Origin: Acetobacter ascendens | GTDB taxonomy: Bacteria; Pseudomonadota; Alphaproteobacteria; Acetobacterales; Acetobacteraceae | Assembly: GCF_001766235.1 (NCBI RefSeq) | Contig: NZ_CP015164.1 | Location: forward strand, 2,507,001-2,571,000 | Length of the DNA stretch: 64,000 nt | Reading direction: 5' to 3' | Shown here: piece by piece, positions 45,045 through 51,614 of the stretch | How positions within the stretch are numbered: position 1 is the stretch's first letter | Layout of the letters: every line of letters begins with the position of its first letter | Notes under the pieces: model-generated | The model's database searches: none | What the model was told of the DNA's origin: nothing | Seen by the model: only the letters and a program-made list of their open reading frames with translations | Made by a program: the position numbers and the translations under genes

Positions 45045-47798
45045 ATGACAAGCGCTCCGTCTTCTGGTGATCCGGGTTCATCTTCTAGCCATTCTCAGGG
45101 CAGGTCTCCGCAAAATCGCAGGCCCGATCTGCGCCGCCCACGCTTTCGCCAATGGCGGAAGGTGCTTGGGGCAACGGCTGCGTCGGCGTTGGTCGGCACT
45201 ACGGGTGCAGTGGTTTTGCTGTGGTCTCAATACGAAGGGATTGTGGCGGATCTGCCAACGGTAGAGGGTTTACGCTCTTATCAGCCGCCAGTTATGAGCC
45301 GCCTTTACGCGGGAGATGATCAGCTTATTGCCGAACTGGCGAATGAGCGGCGTATTTTTGTGCCCATCAGTGCTGTGCCCGATAAGGTGAAAAGTGCCTT
45401 TGTGGCCGCAGAAGACCAGAAATTCTGGACGCATAAAGGGGTGGACCCCGTTGCCATTGCACGCGCTGGCCTTACGGATTTAACGCGCGGCAAAGGCAAG
45501 CGGCCTATTGGGGCGTCTACCATCACGCAGCAGGTGGCGCGTATCATGCTGTTGGGCAGTAATGCCGTATCCTTCAGGCGTAAAGCCAAGGAAGCCTTTT
45601 TGGCCATGCGGGTGGAGCAGGTTCTGCCCAAAGACAAGATTCTGGAAATCTATCTGAACGAAATTTATCTGGGCAGCGGCGCATATGGCATTGCCGCAGC
45701 ATCTCAGACCTATTTCAACAAGCCGCTTGATCAGCTGGATGATGCAGAAGCCGCGTTTTTGGCGGCGCTGCCCAAATCTCCCACCAATTACAACCCTGTA
45801 CGTTTCCCAGATGCTGCCAGAGGGCGTAGAAACTGGGTGCTGGAGCGCATGGCCGATATTGGGGCCATTACGCACGATGCTGCGCGCGTAGCAGAAGCCC
45901 AGCCGCTAACCACCCGTAGCTTTACGCGCCCAGGCCCGGCACTCGGGGCCGAATGGTTTGCGGAAGAAGTGCGTCGCGAACTGATGGAGCGCTATGGTCA
46001 GGACGTAACCATGCAGGGTGGGCTGGATGTTCACACCAGCTTGGATCTGCCGCTCCAGCGCAATGCTCAGGATATTCTGCGCCAAGAGTTGATGGCGTAT
46101 GATCGCGCACATCGTGGCTGGCGTGGTCCAGTGCATCATCTCTCCGATATTGGGTCATCCTCCTCTACAGCAGAATGGGTGCAGGCCTTACAGGGCGTAC
46201 CCGTACCTGCTGGCATGCTTGACCAATGGCGTTTGGCTGTTGTGCTGGACGCAAAGGGGCAGGTGGGCTGGCTTGAAGGCAGCGTGGTGCGGCGAAACAA
46301 TGCCACCCAAAGCGGGGGTGAACCCCGTACAGGCGTGGTGCAGGGCAAGGATATGGCATGGGCACGACGCTTTAAGCCATTGCGCGCCGGTGATGTGATA
46401 ATGGTGCAACCACAGGCCGAAGGTGGCCATGTTGCCCTTATGCAGGTGCCTGTGGTGGAAGGCGCTATTGTGACCATGAATGCACGCACGGGCCGGGTTC
46501 TGGCTCTTGTGGGGGGATGGTCTTTTCAGGCTTCGCAGTTTGATCGCGCAACACAAGCGCTGCGTCAGCCTGGGTCTTCCTTCAAGCCATTTGTTTATCT
46601 GGATGCCATGGAGCAGGGGATTTCCCCTTCCCAGAAGTTTGATGATTCTCCCGTTTCTTACGGAGCATGGCACCCGAATAACTATGAAAAAGATTTCTGG
46701 GGTCCGACCACTCTGCATGATGCCCTACGTGAATCGCGCAATCTGGTTACTATTCGTTTGGCGGCCCATCTGGGCATGAAAACCGTAGCGGATATGGCCA
46801 CCAACCTTGGGTTGGTGGATTCTATGCCGCATGTGCTCCCCGCGGCACTGGGGGCTGTAGAAACCACCGTGCTGAAGGAAGCCGGAGCCTATGCCTCGCT
46901 CGCGGCAGGTGGGCGTAAGGTAACGCCAACACTGGTGGATGATGTGCAGGACCGGGAAGGGCACGTTATCTGGCGGCCGGAGGGGCTGGCGTTGACCACA
47001 GTTTCCTCTGCACAATCTAATGGTGGACAGACGACAGACCAACCTGCAGCTGATGCAGTGTTCCCGGATGCACCATCGGATCAGAAATCTGGGGATACAG
47101 GAAAAGCTGCACCTGCCGCTGCACCTGTGGAGCAACCTATTGTCATGCCAGGGCAGAATGATGCGCCTGCCTTGCATGATAGTCGGCAGCAGGTGGCATC
47201 CGCCCAGAGTGCGTTCCAGATTACCACCATGTTGCAGGATGTTATCCGGCGCGGCACAGGCATGCGGGCTGGAACAGGCATAGATGTGCCTATCGCGGGC
47301 AAAACCGGTACCAGCCAGAATTTTAATGATGCATGGTTTGCTGGATACACCCCAGATCTCGTAACCGTTGTGTGGATAGGGTTTGATACGCCTCAATCCC
47401 TTGGTAAAAACGAAACAGGCGGTGCTATTGCTGGCCCCTTGTGGAACAAGGTGATGAAAACCGCCTTGGATGGGTACCCACGGCAGGATTTTGTGCCGCC
47501 TGTGGGCATTACTCTCGTGCAATATGATACGGGTAGGGGCGTGGCCATAGATGCCTTTAAGGAAGGGCAGGTGCCGGGGCTGAGCGCAAACCTTTCAAGC
47601 AACGTAAACCCACAGGAACTTACAGCCGCAGATACAGGTGCTGAAAACATGCCTGATTCTGAAAGCGATATGGCTGCCGAAGGTTCTGGGGGCGGCCAAT
47701 CAGGAGAACACGCGCCTTCCGGCAATGGTGGTTCGTCTGGTTCTGCGGCGCCTTCTGCACCAGCCGGGGGTGACATTGGTATGGGTGGCCTTTATTGA
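45045..47798 (+). CDS. mrcA: penicillin-binding protein 1A
   Basis: Bifunctional peptidoglycan synthase of 917 residues. A basic, Ser-rich cytosolic N-terminus and one membrane helix (VLGATAASALVGTTGAVVLLW) lead to the GT51 domain, with FVAAEDQKFWTHKGVD, GASTITQQVARIML and EIYLNEIYLGSGAYGIAAAS. The transpeptidase domain has SxxK in RQPGSSFKPFVYLD, SxN in RESRNLVTIRLA and KTGT in IAGKTGTSQNFNDAWFAGY. A long Gly/Ser/Ala-rich tail closes it. An Ala/Pro/Gln-rich insert lies between the SxN and KTG motifs. AAAGGG precedes the ATG. Confidence 0.94.
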   Translation: MTSAPSSGDPGSSSSHSQGRSPQNRRPDLRRPRFRQWRKVLGATAASALVGTTGAVVLLWSQYEGIVADLPTVEGLRSYQPPVMSRLYAGDDQLIAELANERRIFVPISAVPDKVKSAFVAAEDQKFWTHKGVDPVAIARAGLTDLTRGKGKRPIGASTITQQVARIMLLGSNAVSFRRKAKEAFLAMRVEQVLPKDKILEIYLNEIYLGSGAYGIAAASQTYFNKPLDQLDDAEAAFLAALPKSPTNYNPVRFPDAARGRRNWVLERMADIGAITHDAARVAEAQPLTTRSFTRPGPALGAEWFAEEVRRELMERYGQDVTMQGGLDVHTSLDLPLQRNAQDILRQELMAYDRAHRGWRGPVHHLSDIGSSSSTAEWVQALQGVPVPAGMLDQWRLAVVLDAKGQVGWLEGSVVRRNNATQSGGEPRTGVVQGKDMAWARRFKPLRAGDVIMVQPQAEGGHVALMQVPVVEGAIVTMNARTGRVLALVGGWSFQASQFDRATQALRQPGSSFKPFVYLDAMEQGISPSQKFDDSPVSYGAWHPNNYEKDFWGPTTLHDALRESRNLVTIRLAAHLGMKTVADMATNLGLVDSMPHVLPAALGAVETTVLKEAGAYASLAAGGRKVTPTLVDDVQDREGHVIWRPEGLALTTVSSAQSNGGQTTDQPAADAVFPDAPSDQKSGDTGKAAPAAAPVEQPIVMPGQNDAPALHDSRQQVASAQSAFQITTMLQDVIRRGTGMRAGTGIDVPIAGKTGTSQNFNDAWFAGYTPDLVTVVWIGFDTPQSLGKNETGGAIAGPLWNKVMKTALDGYPRQDFVPPVGITLVQYDTGRGVAIDAFKEGQVPGLSANLSSNVNPQELTAADTGAENMPDSESDMAAEGSGGGQSGEHAPSGNGGSSGSAAPSAPAGGDIGMGGLY

Positions 47799-47855
47799 GG
47801 GCCAACACCACATTGTCTTTTTTGACATGATAGAAAAATATGGAGAATCGGCCTA

Positions 47856-48987
47856 ATGTCTGCCGAGACTGAAGCCCTTAACGACCAGATCAAGCAGTCA
47901 GTGGCACTGCTGAGGAGGCATCTTTAACTGGGATGTCGCCCAGGAAAGACTCGCTGAACTGAACAATCGGGCAGAAGACCCCGATCTGTGGAATGATTCA
48001 GACGCTGCGCAAAAAATGATGCGTGAGCGCACCCTTCTGGCCAACCAGATTGAAGGTGTGGAAGCGCTTGAAACCAATGTGCGCGACACCAGCGAACTGA
48101 TTGAACTGGCAGAAGCCGAAGGGGATGCAGATTTGGTGGCCGAAGGTATGGCCACGCTGCGTGATCTGGCGGAAGAAGCCAAACGACGTGAAACAGAAAG
48201 CCTGCTTTCTGGTGAAGCAGACAGTAATGATTGCTATCTGGAAGTGAACGCAGGTGCCGGGGGTACGGAAGCGCAGGATTGGACAGAAATGCTGCTGCGC
48301 ATGTACACCCGCTGGGCAGAGGCGCATGGCTACAAGGTCACGCTGATGGAAAGCTCGGAAGGTGAGCAGGCAGGTCTGAAATCTGCTACTATTCAGGTTT
48401 CCGGCCCTAATGCCTATGGCTGGCTGAAAACAGAAGCGGGCGTACATCGCTTGGTGCGTATCTCACCATTTGATGCCGCAGCACGTCGTCAGACATCTTT
48501 TGCGTCTGTTTGGGTGTATCCCGTTATTGATGATTCCATTGAAATCGAAATCAATGACGCAGACCTGAAAGTAGATACCTTTAGGGCATCTGGTGCTGGT
48601 GGGCAGCATGTTAACAAAACGGATTCCGCTATCCGTATTACGCATATGCCCACGGGCATTGTGGTAGCCTGCCAGACAGACCGCTCCCAGCATCGTAACC
48701 GTGCAACGGCCATGCAGATGCTACGTGCGCGTTTGTATGAAGCAGAGTTGCAGAAGCGCGAAGCCGAAGCCGCGGCGGCAGAAGCTGCCAAAACGGATAT
48801 CGGTTGGGGGCATCAGATCCGCTCTTACGTGCTTGCGCCTTACCAGATGGTAAAGGATTTGCGCACAGGGGTAGAAACCGGCAACCCGGATGCGGTGTTG
48901 GATGGTGATTTGGATGCCTTTATGGCAGCCGCACTTGCTATGCGCGTAGGGGCAACGCGATCAGAGGCCAGTGCTTCTGCCCAGTAA
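47856..48987 (+). CDS. prfB: peptide chain release factor 2 (programmed +1 frameshift)
   Basis: Release factor for UGA and UAA (376 residues after frameshift). Frame 0 runs ATG 47856 to TAA 47925-47927 (23 codons, ending [12 protein letters not shown]). Skipping base 47925 continues as [23 protein letters not shown], the normal RF2 sequence, to TAA at 48987. The recognition motif SPF ([13 protein letters not shown]) and the catalytic GGQ ([14 protein letters not shown]) are intact. The frameshift cassette AGGAGG-CAT-CTT-TAA-C matches the E. coli layout except that the stop is TAA. Upstream is PBP1A (57 bases). Conventional gene calling would miss the first 24 codons and start at 48016. Confidence 0.95.
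47913..47928 (+). promoter_or_regulatory. prfB +1 frameshift cassette with UAA stop
   Basis: AGGAGG (internal Shine-Dalgarno-like, 47913-47918), CAT spacer, slippery CTT (47922-47924), stop TAA (47925-47927) and C. The spacing of three bases between the stimulator and CTT is the one known to favour +1 slippage. Almost all described sites carry TGA at the stop position. Confidence 0.9.
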
Positions 48988-49020
48988 GAGTTTATTTCTG
49001 AATCGAAATAAAAATACAGG

Positions 49021-49051
49021 AAAGCAGGCTCCATTTTGGGCCTGCTTTTTT
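49021..49051 (+). terminator. rho-independent terminator of prfB
   Basis: AAAGCAGGC / GCCTGCTTTTTT around a short loop, 34 bases after the prfB stop. Confidence 0.88.
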
Positions 49052-49359
49052 GTTGTGATGAAAGGCGGAATTAAACAGAAAAAACGCCGATAGAGCCGAG
49101 AAAACTCGGCTTTAGAGAGATTTTGTTCTCACGCCAGAACAGATTGTCTTTATGAAAGAAAATGTGAAATTAGCAGAACATTCTTGACAGAAAGCCTATC
49201 TAATTGCCCAATCGAAAGTCGGAAAAGGTTACCTGTATGGCAGAACAGCAATCTGTTATTGTCATGGCAGCGTAAATAGGCTCCGGTAACGCCCTGTGTA
49301 TCAAGGGTAAGGCAAGAGCATCTGTTGGGATGCAGGGTGACAAAGGAGGACGTGCAAAT
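49052..49359 (+). other. intergenic region upstream of tonB
   Basis: About 300 bases without a gene. A small hairpin AGCCGAG-AAAA-CTCGGCT lies at 49094-49111. TTGACA at 49184-49189 is a candidate -35 box for the tonB operon. I see no clear Fur box, which would be expected if the operon were iron-controlled in the usual way. Confidence 0.35.
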
Positions 49360-50079
49360 ATGAATGACTACGAGCAACAGCCGGGCTCGGTGAGATATAC
49401 GTTCCGGGTAGGGGCTGTTGTCGGTGTTGTTGCCCTGTTGGTGGTTGTCGCGCTGCATCTTCTGGGCGTACTGGGGTTGATGTACGGTATGGGCACCACG
49501 GCAAGTGTTCCTGTTACACATCCGCCTATCAAAACAGTTATGTTGCCACCCCCGCCGCCTCCTCCGCCACCGCCTCCTCCGCCACCCCCGCCGCCGGTTA
49601 TGGCAGTGCCTCCTCCGCCATATATTCCGCCGCCCAAGATCAAGGTGCCGCCGCCGCCTAAGCCGCCCATCAAGCATGTGGCCAAGGCTCCGCCCAAGCA
49701 CCCAACGCCGCCGCAAACCAAAACGGCTGCAGCGCCTCCGGCAACATCTGCCCCCAGTAGTGCAGCTGCCGCAGGAGATGGCACGACAGACGCACCAGAT
49801 ACGTCTGCGGGTTCTGCACCTTTAAACAATGTGCAGCCGGTCTATCCGCCAGAAATGGAGGAAGAGAACATTGAAGGTCGCGTTACATTGATTTGCGATG
49901 TGGAAGCTTCTGGCATGACCAGCAATTGCCATGTGCAGTCAGTTTCTGGCGGTCAGGCCTTTGCTCAGTCTGCATTGGATTACGTGCATAAGGCTCGCTA
50001 TCGCCCGGCTTCGCGTAATGGCGCTCCGGTGAAGGAACTGCACAAGGTCTATGTCATTCGCTTTAGGCTAGATGACTAA
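49360..50079 (+). CDS. tonB: TonB energy-transducing protein
   Basis: Periplasm-spanning protein coupling the ExbB/ExbD proton motor to outer-membrane receptors (239 residues). ATG 49360 follows AAAGGAGG. A single N-terminal membrane helix (VGAVVGVVALLVVVALHLLGVLGL) is followed by a rigid linker with 17 consecutive prolines and further PPPP/KPP blocks. The C-terminal TonB domain has VQPVYPPEMEEENIEGRVTLICDVEASG and SALDYVHKARYRPASRNGAPV. Two cysteines in that domain (LICDV, SNCHV) may form a disulfide. First gene of tonB-exbB-exbD-exbD-TPR. Confidence 0.94.
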   Translation: MNDYEQQPGSVRYTFRVGAVVGVVALLVVVALHLLGVLGLMYGMGTTASVPVTHPPIKTVMLPPPPPPPPPPPPPPPPPVMAVPPPPYIPPPKIKVPPPPKPPIKHVAKAPPKHPTPPQTKTAAAPPATSAPSSAAAAGDGTTDAPDTSAGSAPLNNVQPVYPPEMEEENIEGRVTLICDVEASGMTSNCHVQSVSGGQAFAQSALDYVHKARYRPASRNGAPVKELHKVYVIRFRLDD

Positions 50080-50166
50080 AACGGGGTCAGTTTTTCATAC
50101 TGGCCAGTAGTACAAATTACGGATTGCCCGATCTGTTTACATAACACGAAAGTAGATCGGGCCCTG

Positions 50167-51165
50167 ATGATGAGGATTATGAGGAAGATGACCAGACTGC
50201 CCCGTTCTTTTGTGTCAGGTCTTGCGGCTCCGGCTCTGGCGCTGCTGATGAGCACTGCAGCCCCTGTGGCAGCCTTTGCGCAGGATGCGGTCGCCACAGC
50301 GCCTGCAGCTACGGCGCCCGCCCCTGATGCGGCGCCATCTTCCGCGCCGGCTCCCGCAGTCACACCGGATGCAGCCCCCACAGCCAGCGCTCCGGCTGAA
50401 CAGGCCCCACCTGCGGCAGACACCAAGGAAGAAGCCAATCCCTACGGTCTGGGCGCCCTGTGGTCCAATGGGGATATCATTGCCCGCGGCGTGCTGCTGA
50501 TCATGCTCACCATGTCTTTGGGCACATGGTATATCATGATCACCAAGTTTATCGAGCAGGCCCGCCTGTTTGCCGCCGCCAAGGAAGCCACCAAAAGCTT
50601 CTGGACCAAGCACAGCATTCAGGAAGGGGCTTCCGCTCTGACCTCCACCTCTCCGTTCCGCTACATCGCCGATACCGGCATTGTGGCTGCCGAGCACCAT
50701 GAAGGCACGATGCAGGAAAGCATCGACCTGCATAGCTGGACGGGCATGTCCATCCAGCGCGCGGTGAACAACATCCAAAACAGCCTGCAAAAGGGTCTGG
50801 CGTTTCTGGGCACCGTGGGGTCCACCTCTCCGTTCATCGGTCTGTTCGGCACGGTGTGGGGGATCTACCATGCGCTAACAGCTATCGGTATTGCCGGTCA
50901 GGCCTCCATCGACAAAGTGGCCGGACCTGTGGGTGAATCCCTGATCATGACAGCCATTGGTCTGGCCACCGCTGTGCCAGCCGTTCTGGGTTACAACCTG
51001 CTGGTGCGCCGCAACAAGACAGCCATGGATCTGGTGCGAGACTTTGCCTCTGACCTGCAGTCCATCCTCATCGGGGGTGTGCGTCATGGGGCCGCTGTGG
51101 ACCAGATTGTGGTGCGTCCGGATAACTCCCCCACCACAGCCACTGTATCCAACCGCATCGGGTAA
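50167..51165 (+). CDS. exbB: ExbB-type MotA/TolQ/ExbB proton channel protein with N-terminal extension
   Basis: Inner-membrane motor subunit of 332 residues, about 90 longer than E. coli ExbB. The extra part is an apparent signal peptide (FVSGLAAPALALLMSTAAPVAAFA) and an Ala/Pro-rich linker up to about residue 90. Three membrane helices follow, with the MotA/ExbB signatures GLAFLGTVGSTSPFIGLFGTVWGIYHAL and ESLIMTAIGLATAVPAVLGYN. Several in-frame ATGs (50167, 50170, 50179, 50188) make the exact start unsure. 87 bases after tonB. Confidence 0.92.
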   Translation: MMRIMRKMTRLPRSFVSGLAAPALALLMSTAAPVAAFAQDAVATAPAATAPAPDAAPSSAPAPAVTPDAAPTASAPAEQAPPAADTKEEANPYGLGALWSNGDIIARGVLLIMLTMSLGTWYIMITKFIEQARLFAAAKEATKSFWTKHSIQEGASALTSTSPFRYIADTGIVAAEHHEGTMQESIDLHSWTGMSIQRAVNNIQNSLQKGLAFLGTVGSTSPFIGLFGTVWGIYHALTAIGIAGQASIDKVAGPVGESLIMTAIGLATAVPAVLGYNLLVRRNKTAMDLVRDFASDLQSILIGGVRHGAAVDQIVVRPDNSPTTATVSNRIG

Positions 51166-51194
51166 TCAATCAGGTCAAGGCAAGGAGAGCGCTT

Positions 51195-51614
51195 ATGGGC
51201 ATGCAGATTGGCGATAGTGGCGGGGAAGACGACGTCGTCTCCGCCATCAACACCACACCGCTTGTGGATGTGATGCTGGTGCTGCTGATCATCTTCCTGA
51301 TCACCATTCCGGTGGCCACACATACCGTCAAGGTGCAACTGCCCAAGGACATGAACCAGCCCACCCAGACCAAGCTGAGCAATGTGGTTTTGGCCGTTAC
51401 GGCGGATGGACAGACCTTCTGGGATGAAACGCCGATCAAGGACCGGGCCGATCTTTTGGCCCGGCTGGAGAAGGCGGCGGTGCAAAAGCCGCAGCCGCAG
51501 ATCCAGATCCGCGGAGATGTGACCACACGCTATGAGAGTGTGGGCCGTCTGGTGGCCACGTGTCAGGAAGCAGGCATCAGCCATATCGATTTCATTACGG
51601 AAAAGCCGAAATAG
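51195..51614 (+). CDS. exbD: ExbD biopolymer transport protein (first copy)
   Basis: A 139-residue motor subunit. It has the single membrane helix after INTTPLVDVMLVLLIIFLITIPV, containing the proton-path Asp in the LVDVML motif, and a periplasmic domain ending ISHIDFITEKPK. AAGGAGAG lies 7 bases before ATG 51195. Lies 29 bases after exbB. Confidence 0.93.
   Translation: MGMQIGDSGGEDDVVSAINTTPLVDVMLVLLIIFLITIPVATHTVKVQLPKDMNQPTQTKLSNVVLAVTADGQTFWDETPIKDRADLLARLEKAAVQKPQPQIQIRGDVTTRYESVGRLVATCQEAGISHIDFITEKPK

Follow-up and report, generated by a model that had tools for sequence, protein, structure and literature searches.

A prfB programmed frameshift cassette with UAA as its in-frame stop in Acetobacter and related acetic acid bacteria

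The 64-kb stretch of the Acetobacter ascendens genome analyzed here (64,000 nucleotides; hereafter the window) carries prfB, the gene for peptide chain release factor 2 (RF2), arranged as a +1 programmed frameshift gene in which the in-frame stop is UAA. The prfB features and the downstream hairpin described below lie on the forward strand. The short upstream open reading frame (ORF1; 47856-47927) comprises 23 codons from its ATG (47856-47858) and ends at the in-frame TAA. Positions 47907-47928, in frame with this ATG, read CTG CTG AGG AGG CAT CTT TAA C. This segment includes an internal Shine-Dalgarno-like stimulator (AGGAGG, 47913-47918) located 3 nucleotides upstream of CTT; the spacer codon CAT, or E-site codon (47919-47921), identified from the sequence itself and from the 30 Acetobacter sequences with TAA described below; the slippery CTT_T (47922-47925, the CTT codon itself being 47922-47924), on which a peptidyl-tRNA-Leu(GAG) could re-pair from CUU to UUU; and the stop TAA (47925-47927), which together with the +4 C at 47928 gives UAAC (47925-47928) where UGAC is usual. 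The original prediction, made from the window alone, had placed a classical RF2 cassette of the form AGGAGG-CAT-CTT-stop-C with TAA at 47913-47928, and these coordinates are exact to the base.

Omission of the T at 47925 opens a frame of 353 residues (47926-48984, stop codon 48985-48987), so that the RF2 body occupies 47926-48987 and begins with Asn instead of the usual Asp. This frame scores 522.5 bits against the TIGR00020 prfB profile (cut-off 370), and RF1 profile models score it under their own cut-offs, which bears out the earlier proposal that skipping one T restores the RF2 frame. The encoded protein is 99.7% identical to RF2 of A. pasteurianus LMG 1262 (L063). The pattern AGGNGGNNNCTTTRAC matches once in the window, against 0.02 matches expected from shuffled sequences. 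Internal downstream initiation of RF2 is not favoured, as the RF2 frame offers no ATG, GTG or TTG before the ATG at 48016, which lies 98 nucleotides past the Shine-Dalgarno-like element; an ATG at 47933 lies outside this frame. Folding of 47856-48010 gave no sign of a special mRNA structure, the folding energy being that of shuffled sequences (z 0.02).

The locus therefore shows a short ORF1 with an in-frame stop and RF2 in the +1 frame, a conserved Shine-Dalgarno-like element 3 nucleotides 5' of the slippery codon, a CTT_T site in a genome that also encodes tRNA-Leu(GAG) (L212), and an RF2-readable stop followed by C. The RF2-specific UGA, which is usual in such genes (98.6% of cases) without defining them, is replaced by TAA. 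The tRNA genes were located with Rfam and ARAGORN; a tRNA-Leu consensus pattern gave no match.

Across the 49 genomes of the genus, prfB has TAA in 31 and TGA in 15; the assemblies of the other three yielded no prfB. The figure of 31 combines 30 sequences read at prfB with G027, counted from its pattern match. The genus group (g1) was identified as Acetobacter through exact matches of 23 of its 30 TAA sequences to Acetobacter-named records. The ORF1 ATG lies at a constant distance from the cassette in 45 of 45 prfB sequences examined from the genus. The cassette pattern matched 45 of the 49 genomes. As to the four non-matching genomes, G039 carries CGGAGG-TAT-CTT-TAA-C and is counted as TAA; in G030 and G042 the sole hits of the prfB search share 37-38% identity, which is the range of the RF1 paralogue; and the 68% complete assembly of G035 gave no prfB hit. 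In G013 one pattern match is a chance sequence, and the true prfB, with TAA, lies on a different contig.

Comparison of prfB 5' ends across the Acetobacteraceae for TGA versus TAA, a check suggested by the original prediction, shows that TAA recurs in three genera and is no isolated oddity. Of the 397 family genomes sampled, 333 match the two-stop pattern one or more times and 22 match the TAA pattern. The cassette AGGAGGCAT is present in 17 of these 22, distributed over g1 (8), g54 (7) and g30 (2). The other five (G315, G337, G221, G078 and G308) match at another sequence, which we regard as a chance hit; G078, the only one of them with prfB read, has TGA. In the Gluconobacter group g54, which includes Neokomagataea, all 26 genomes were read, giving 11 TAA and 15 TGA; nine of the 11 TAA sequences exactly match records of Gluconobacter (6) or Neokomagataea (3), from which the group is named. 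The third genus, g30, has TAA in both of its genomes. Of the 99 other genera sampled, 30 were represented by one genome each; 29 of these have TGA and one (g66) has an in-frame RF2. All 14 further outgroup sequences have TGA. The in-frame case, a small-genome relative within the frameshifting part of the family (L182, from G113), reads AGGCGC CAT TTG, with both the Shine-Dalgarno-like element and the slippery codon eroded.

A species-genome collection was scanned once with the strict pattern AGGRGGNATCTTTAACTNNGAY, which yielded 60 loci, a lower bound on the breadth of this cassette. All except L100 are prfB, some of them cut by contig ends. By record title, 34 of these 59 loci belong to the Acetobacteraceae (25 Acetobacter, 6 Gluconobacter and 3 Neokomagataea) and 25 lie outside the family: Magnetococcales (7), metagenome-assembled genomes (MAGs) of Hyphomicrobiales (4), Bartonella (3, among them L062), Sneathiellales or Sneathiella (2), unnamed Alphaproteobacteria (2), and one each from Agrobacterium vitis (L078), Tokpelaia, Breoghania, Legionella (L089), Serratia symbiotica (L116), a Schleiferiaceae MAG (L104) and a Sumerlaeia MAG (L059). 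The presence of UAA cassettes in such distant lineages suggests repeated origin. Plasmids were also searched with RF2, which returned 32 records; the counts given here do not draw on them.

The cassette is conserved well beyond what the encoded amino acids require. In the 30 TAA sequences of Acetobacter, AGGAGG is found in 29 (CGGAGG in G039) and the spacer CAT in 28 (TAT in G038 and G039). Codon by codon, the first AGG is kept in 29 of 30 and the second AGG, CTT and AAC in 30 of 30; the +4 C of UAAC is thus retained throughout although AAT would be synonymous. Outside the cassette, amino-acid-invariant positions of the same sequences keep a single codon at 0 of 61 six-fold and 1 of 86 two-fold sites, or at 3 of 63 and 12 of 94 when the two AT-rich sequences are set aside; these counts carry no correction for kinship, which acts on cassette and background alike. 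In-frame RF2 was found in all 12 relatives examined among the 64 family genomes lacking a pattern match, and the combination of the Shine-Dalgarno-like element with CTT_T is missing from all 12. At synonymous sites the cassette hardly varies within the TAA clade, and it is eroded in all of these in-frame relatives; frameshifting itself, beyond the protein alone, therefore appears from the alignments to be under selection with UAA present. The trees and codon counts were made without G027 (TAA; frame broken in a draft contig) and without G140, which offers no usable frame. The two AT-rich Acetobacter (L124 from G038 and L052 from G039) have genomes of 1.5-1.7 Mb and retain CTT-TAA-C, and their TAT spacer is the codon found in E. 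coli.

The stop has also changed rarely. On a DNA tree of 116 sequences, its middle base shows 5 changes, whereas 22 purine-ending two-fold sites have a median of 21.5 and one of them is as low; within the 30 TAA sequences of Acetobacter it shows none against a median of 3, and 0 of 42 sites are as low. The same base is unremarkable in the TAA sequences minus the two AT-rich ones (7 of 43 sites equally still), in all Acetobacter (5 of 39), in TGA Acetobacter (13 of 47) and in g54 (23 of 51). Since a change at this base would also alter the RF2 protein, in which it specifies Asn or Asp, its stability speaks only mildly for UAA being held in place.

In a rapid phylogeny of 117 prfB proteins, all 30 TAA sequences of Acetobacter make up a single clade (Shimodaira-Hasegawa-like approximate likelihood ratio support 99) with no TGA members. 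The TAA/TGA label changes four times on the protein tree and five times on the DNA tree, and supported branches force two and three TAA changes, respectively. TGA is the likely ancestral stop, because it is found in all 29 frameshifted representatives of other genera, and we infer the direction of change to be from UGA to UAA. The UAA stops of the Acetobacter clade, the Gluconobacter group and the third genus probably represent separate changes; a single origin of UAA with losses afterwards is a history that the trees also allow.

UAA is a cognate codon of both RF1 and RF2. The genome of the window encodes an RF1-like ORF of 352 amino acids, named by similarity, and an RF3 that passes the prfC cut-off once its in-frame pieces are joined. 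The prfC cut-off is passed in 47 of the 49 genus genomes, the exceptions being G021, where the hit is split into two pieces, and the 68% complete G035; loss of RF3 as a cause of UAA is therefore unsupported. RF2 retains the SPF motif and, in the context RASGAGGQ, has an Ala aligned to what we take to be position 246 of E. coli RF2. In the available portion of one report, UAA is decoded by RF1 and RF2 in E. coli with Ala246 and mainly by RF1 with Thr246 (PMC5373646). Across the two genera, no RF2 residue except the recoded Asn varies in step with UAA. Stop codon usage was sampled over 200 kb per genome from ORFs of at least 150 amino acids with simple ORF calling; UAG makes up 7-13% of stops in six genomes, of the TAA and TGA types alike, and the genome of the window uses UAA at 42% and UGA at 47%. 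G+C content and stop usage correlate with UAA and are inseparable from kinship, and neither was retained as its cause.

Anatomy, homology, conservation and distribution, from which frameshifting at this locus, its efficiency and its response to RF1 and RF2 are predicted, make it highly probable that prfB of the window has an ordinary RF2 +1 programmed frameshift site in which UAA serves as the sensor stop, read by RF2 and shared with RF1. An ancestral G-to-A change would have converted the sensor stop from UGA to UAA. The ribosome would arrive at CUU with the internal Shine-Dalgarno-like element bound and, while the stop waits in the A site, tRNA-Leu(GAG) would slip from CUU to UUU, so that RF2 is completed; without the slip, release factors would terminate translation after 23 residues. 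The probability of shifting would then be the slip rate taken as a fraction of slippage plus release-factor termination, a termination term containing RF2 alone with UGA and both RF1 and RF2 with UAA. Since RF2 reads UAA, it would still close the loop; since RF1 shares the codon, the gain of the feedback would shrink to the part of UAA termination that RF2 carries out, and RF1 would acquire a repressing role. This variant would have been stably inherited by the entire Acetobacter clade. We regard as rather unlikely the further proposition that the loop has become, in Acetobacter and some of the Gluconobacter group, a stable UAA sensor integrating RF1 and RF2, with RF1 repressing RF2 synthesis, and that selection maintains UAA in 31 or more species, where it would be no poorly tolerated transient.

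Several points weigh against this interpretation. Conservation of the cassette points to selection on frameshifting, which need not mean that feedback itself is selected. The change counts on both trees do not separate gains from losses. The DNA tree places g14 and g40 (TGA) and g30 (TAA), all AT-rich, inside the Acetobacter TAA clade, which we take to be a composition artefact because the protein tree lacks this placement. Finally, TAA has been argued to be "poorly tolerated" at this site in the available text of PMC12421855.

The original prediction saw a classical cassette with UAA, noted that RF1 also reads this codon and expected some coupling to RF1, all of which agrees with our analysis; its conclusion that the loop was either rewired or had lost control goes unsupported, as the Shine-Dalgarno-like element, the spacing, CTT and the +4 C are all kept and almost frozen synonymously. 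A rewired site that senses total RF1 and RF2 activity, with RF1 repressing RF2 synthesis and the arrangement maintained by selection, is possible but doubtful: RF1 is present with UAA among its codons, and the stop looks held both over the 116 sequences and within the 30, but the remaining subsets are unremarkable, a held stop is explicable by the Asn/Asp residue of the RF2 frame, and no RF2 residue co-varies with it. Demand for RF1 alone is moreover low, given the UAG share of 7-13%. That control has been lost, slippage being too efficient or termination too weak for UAA to matter, so that the stop is a relic, seems improbable. Related species do carry either stop within otherwise identical cassettes, but a relic could be removed by a one-nucleotide deletion, and in-frame prfB occurs in 12 of 12 examined relatives from other lineages and in 0 of 31 TAA Acetobacter; the +4 C, kept in all 30 sequences, weakens termination, which is relevant only with competing termination.

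An even chance may be given to a near-neutral, AT-ward mutation in which the step from UGA to UAA mattered little and was then inherited, an account of the origin of UAA that is compatible with an ordinary site sensing through UAA. Mean G+C content at third codon positions of prfB is 0.60 in TAA sequences (n=43) versus 0.76 in TGA sequences (n=73), and TAA loci elsewhere include the AT-rich Bartonella, Legionella and Serratia symbiotica. Yet this contrast may reflect kinship, with only two independent pairs on supported branches; G048, with TAA, matches sampled TGA species in G+C content and stop usage; the AT-rich g14 and g40 representatives retain TGA; and several TAA loci outside the family have a G+C content of 0.5-0.63. 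As for a sequencing or assembly error or a pseudogene, we found no point in support, and the idea can be practically dismissed. The original prediction had named a sequencing error or an uninterrupted frame in relatives as possible refutations; the same codon recurs in dozens of separate assemblies, including 31 of the 49 genus genomes, full-length RF2 follows it, and none of the 46 genus genomes with prfB found has an uninterrupted frame.

Downstream of prfB, a hairpin with a 9-bp stem and a 10-nucleotide loop, followed by a T run, was read directly at 49021-49051 and is a probable intrinsic terminator of the gene; it went unlisted in a consensus terminator scan, which was restricted to loops of 3-8 nucleotides. 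Within 45045-51614, prfB is flanked by a PBP1A-family gene and a TonB / ExbB-TolQ / ExbD-TolR-like cluster, whose TonB-like protein contains a run of 17 prolines.

The UAA type of prfB is already known as a rare type. In the available portions of their article, Prince, Lin and Feaga (2025) report TAA in 1.4% and TAG in none of 8,164 motif-bearing prfB genomes, the TAA cases falling in multiple phyla and being counted as the same motif; their discussion gives TGA as >99%, and the article describes UAA as not broadly fixed in particular clades (PMC12421855). As far as the corresponding portions of other sources go, the GeneTack motif is YTT_TRA_C, with CTT_TGA_C in a figure legend (PMC3711429), and UGA is the prfB stop both in a 2016 review (PMC5009743) and, as the internal UGA, in a 2026 study of the loss of prfB autoregulation (PMC13245932). 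Literature searches, with supplements and most subscription journals outside their scope, found nothing on the prfB frameshift in Acetobacter or Gluconobacter, and PMC12421855 as the sole match for CTTTAA with prfB. Clade-wide fixation of UAA thus seems undescribed, although Figure S1 and the tables of PMC12421855 may already list these species, and it runs counter to the statement on clade fixation in the available text of that article. Related, culturable vinegar bacteria carry near-identical cassettes that differ by one base, UGAC versus UAAC, each of them stable; this natural experiment therefore makes possible a direct test of the reason for the strong preference for UGA in prfB and of the importance of an RF2-specific stop.

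Taken with known systems, the window resembles E. coli-type prfB in its internal Shine-Dalgarno element, 3-nucleotide spacer codon, CTT_T, in-frame stop, +4 C and RF2 in the +1 frame, and differs from it in having UAA instead of UGA, AGGAGG instead of AGGGGG, a CAT spacer, and Asn instead of Asp as the first recoded residue. With the CTTTAA minority class it shares the identical stop variant; unlike that class as presented in the available text of PMC12421855, the variant seen here spans a whole Acetobacter group of 31 species and some of the Gluconobacter group.
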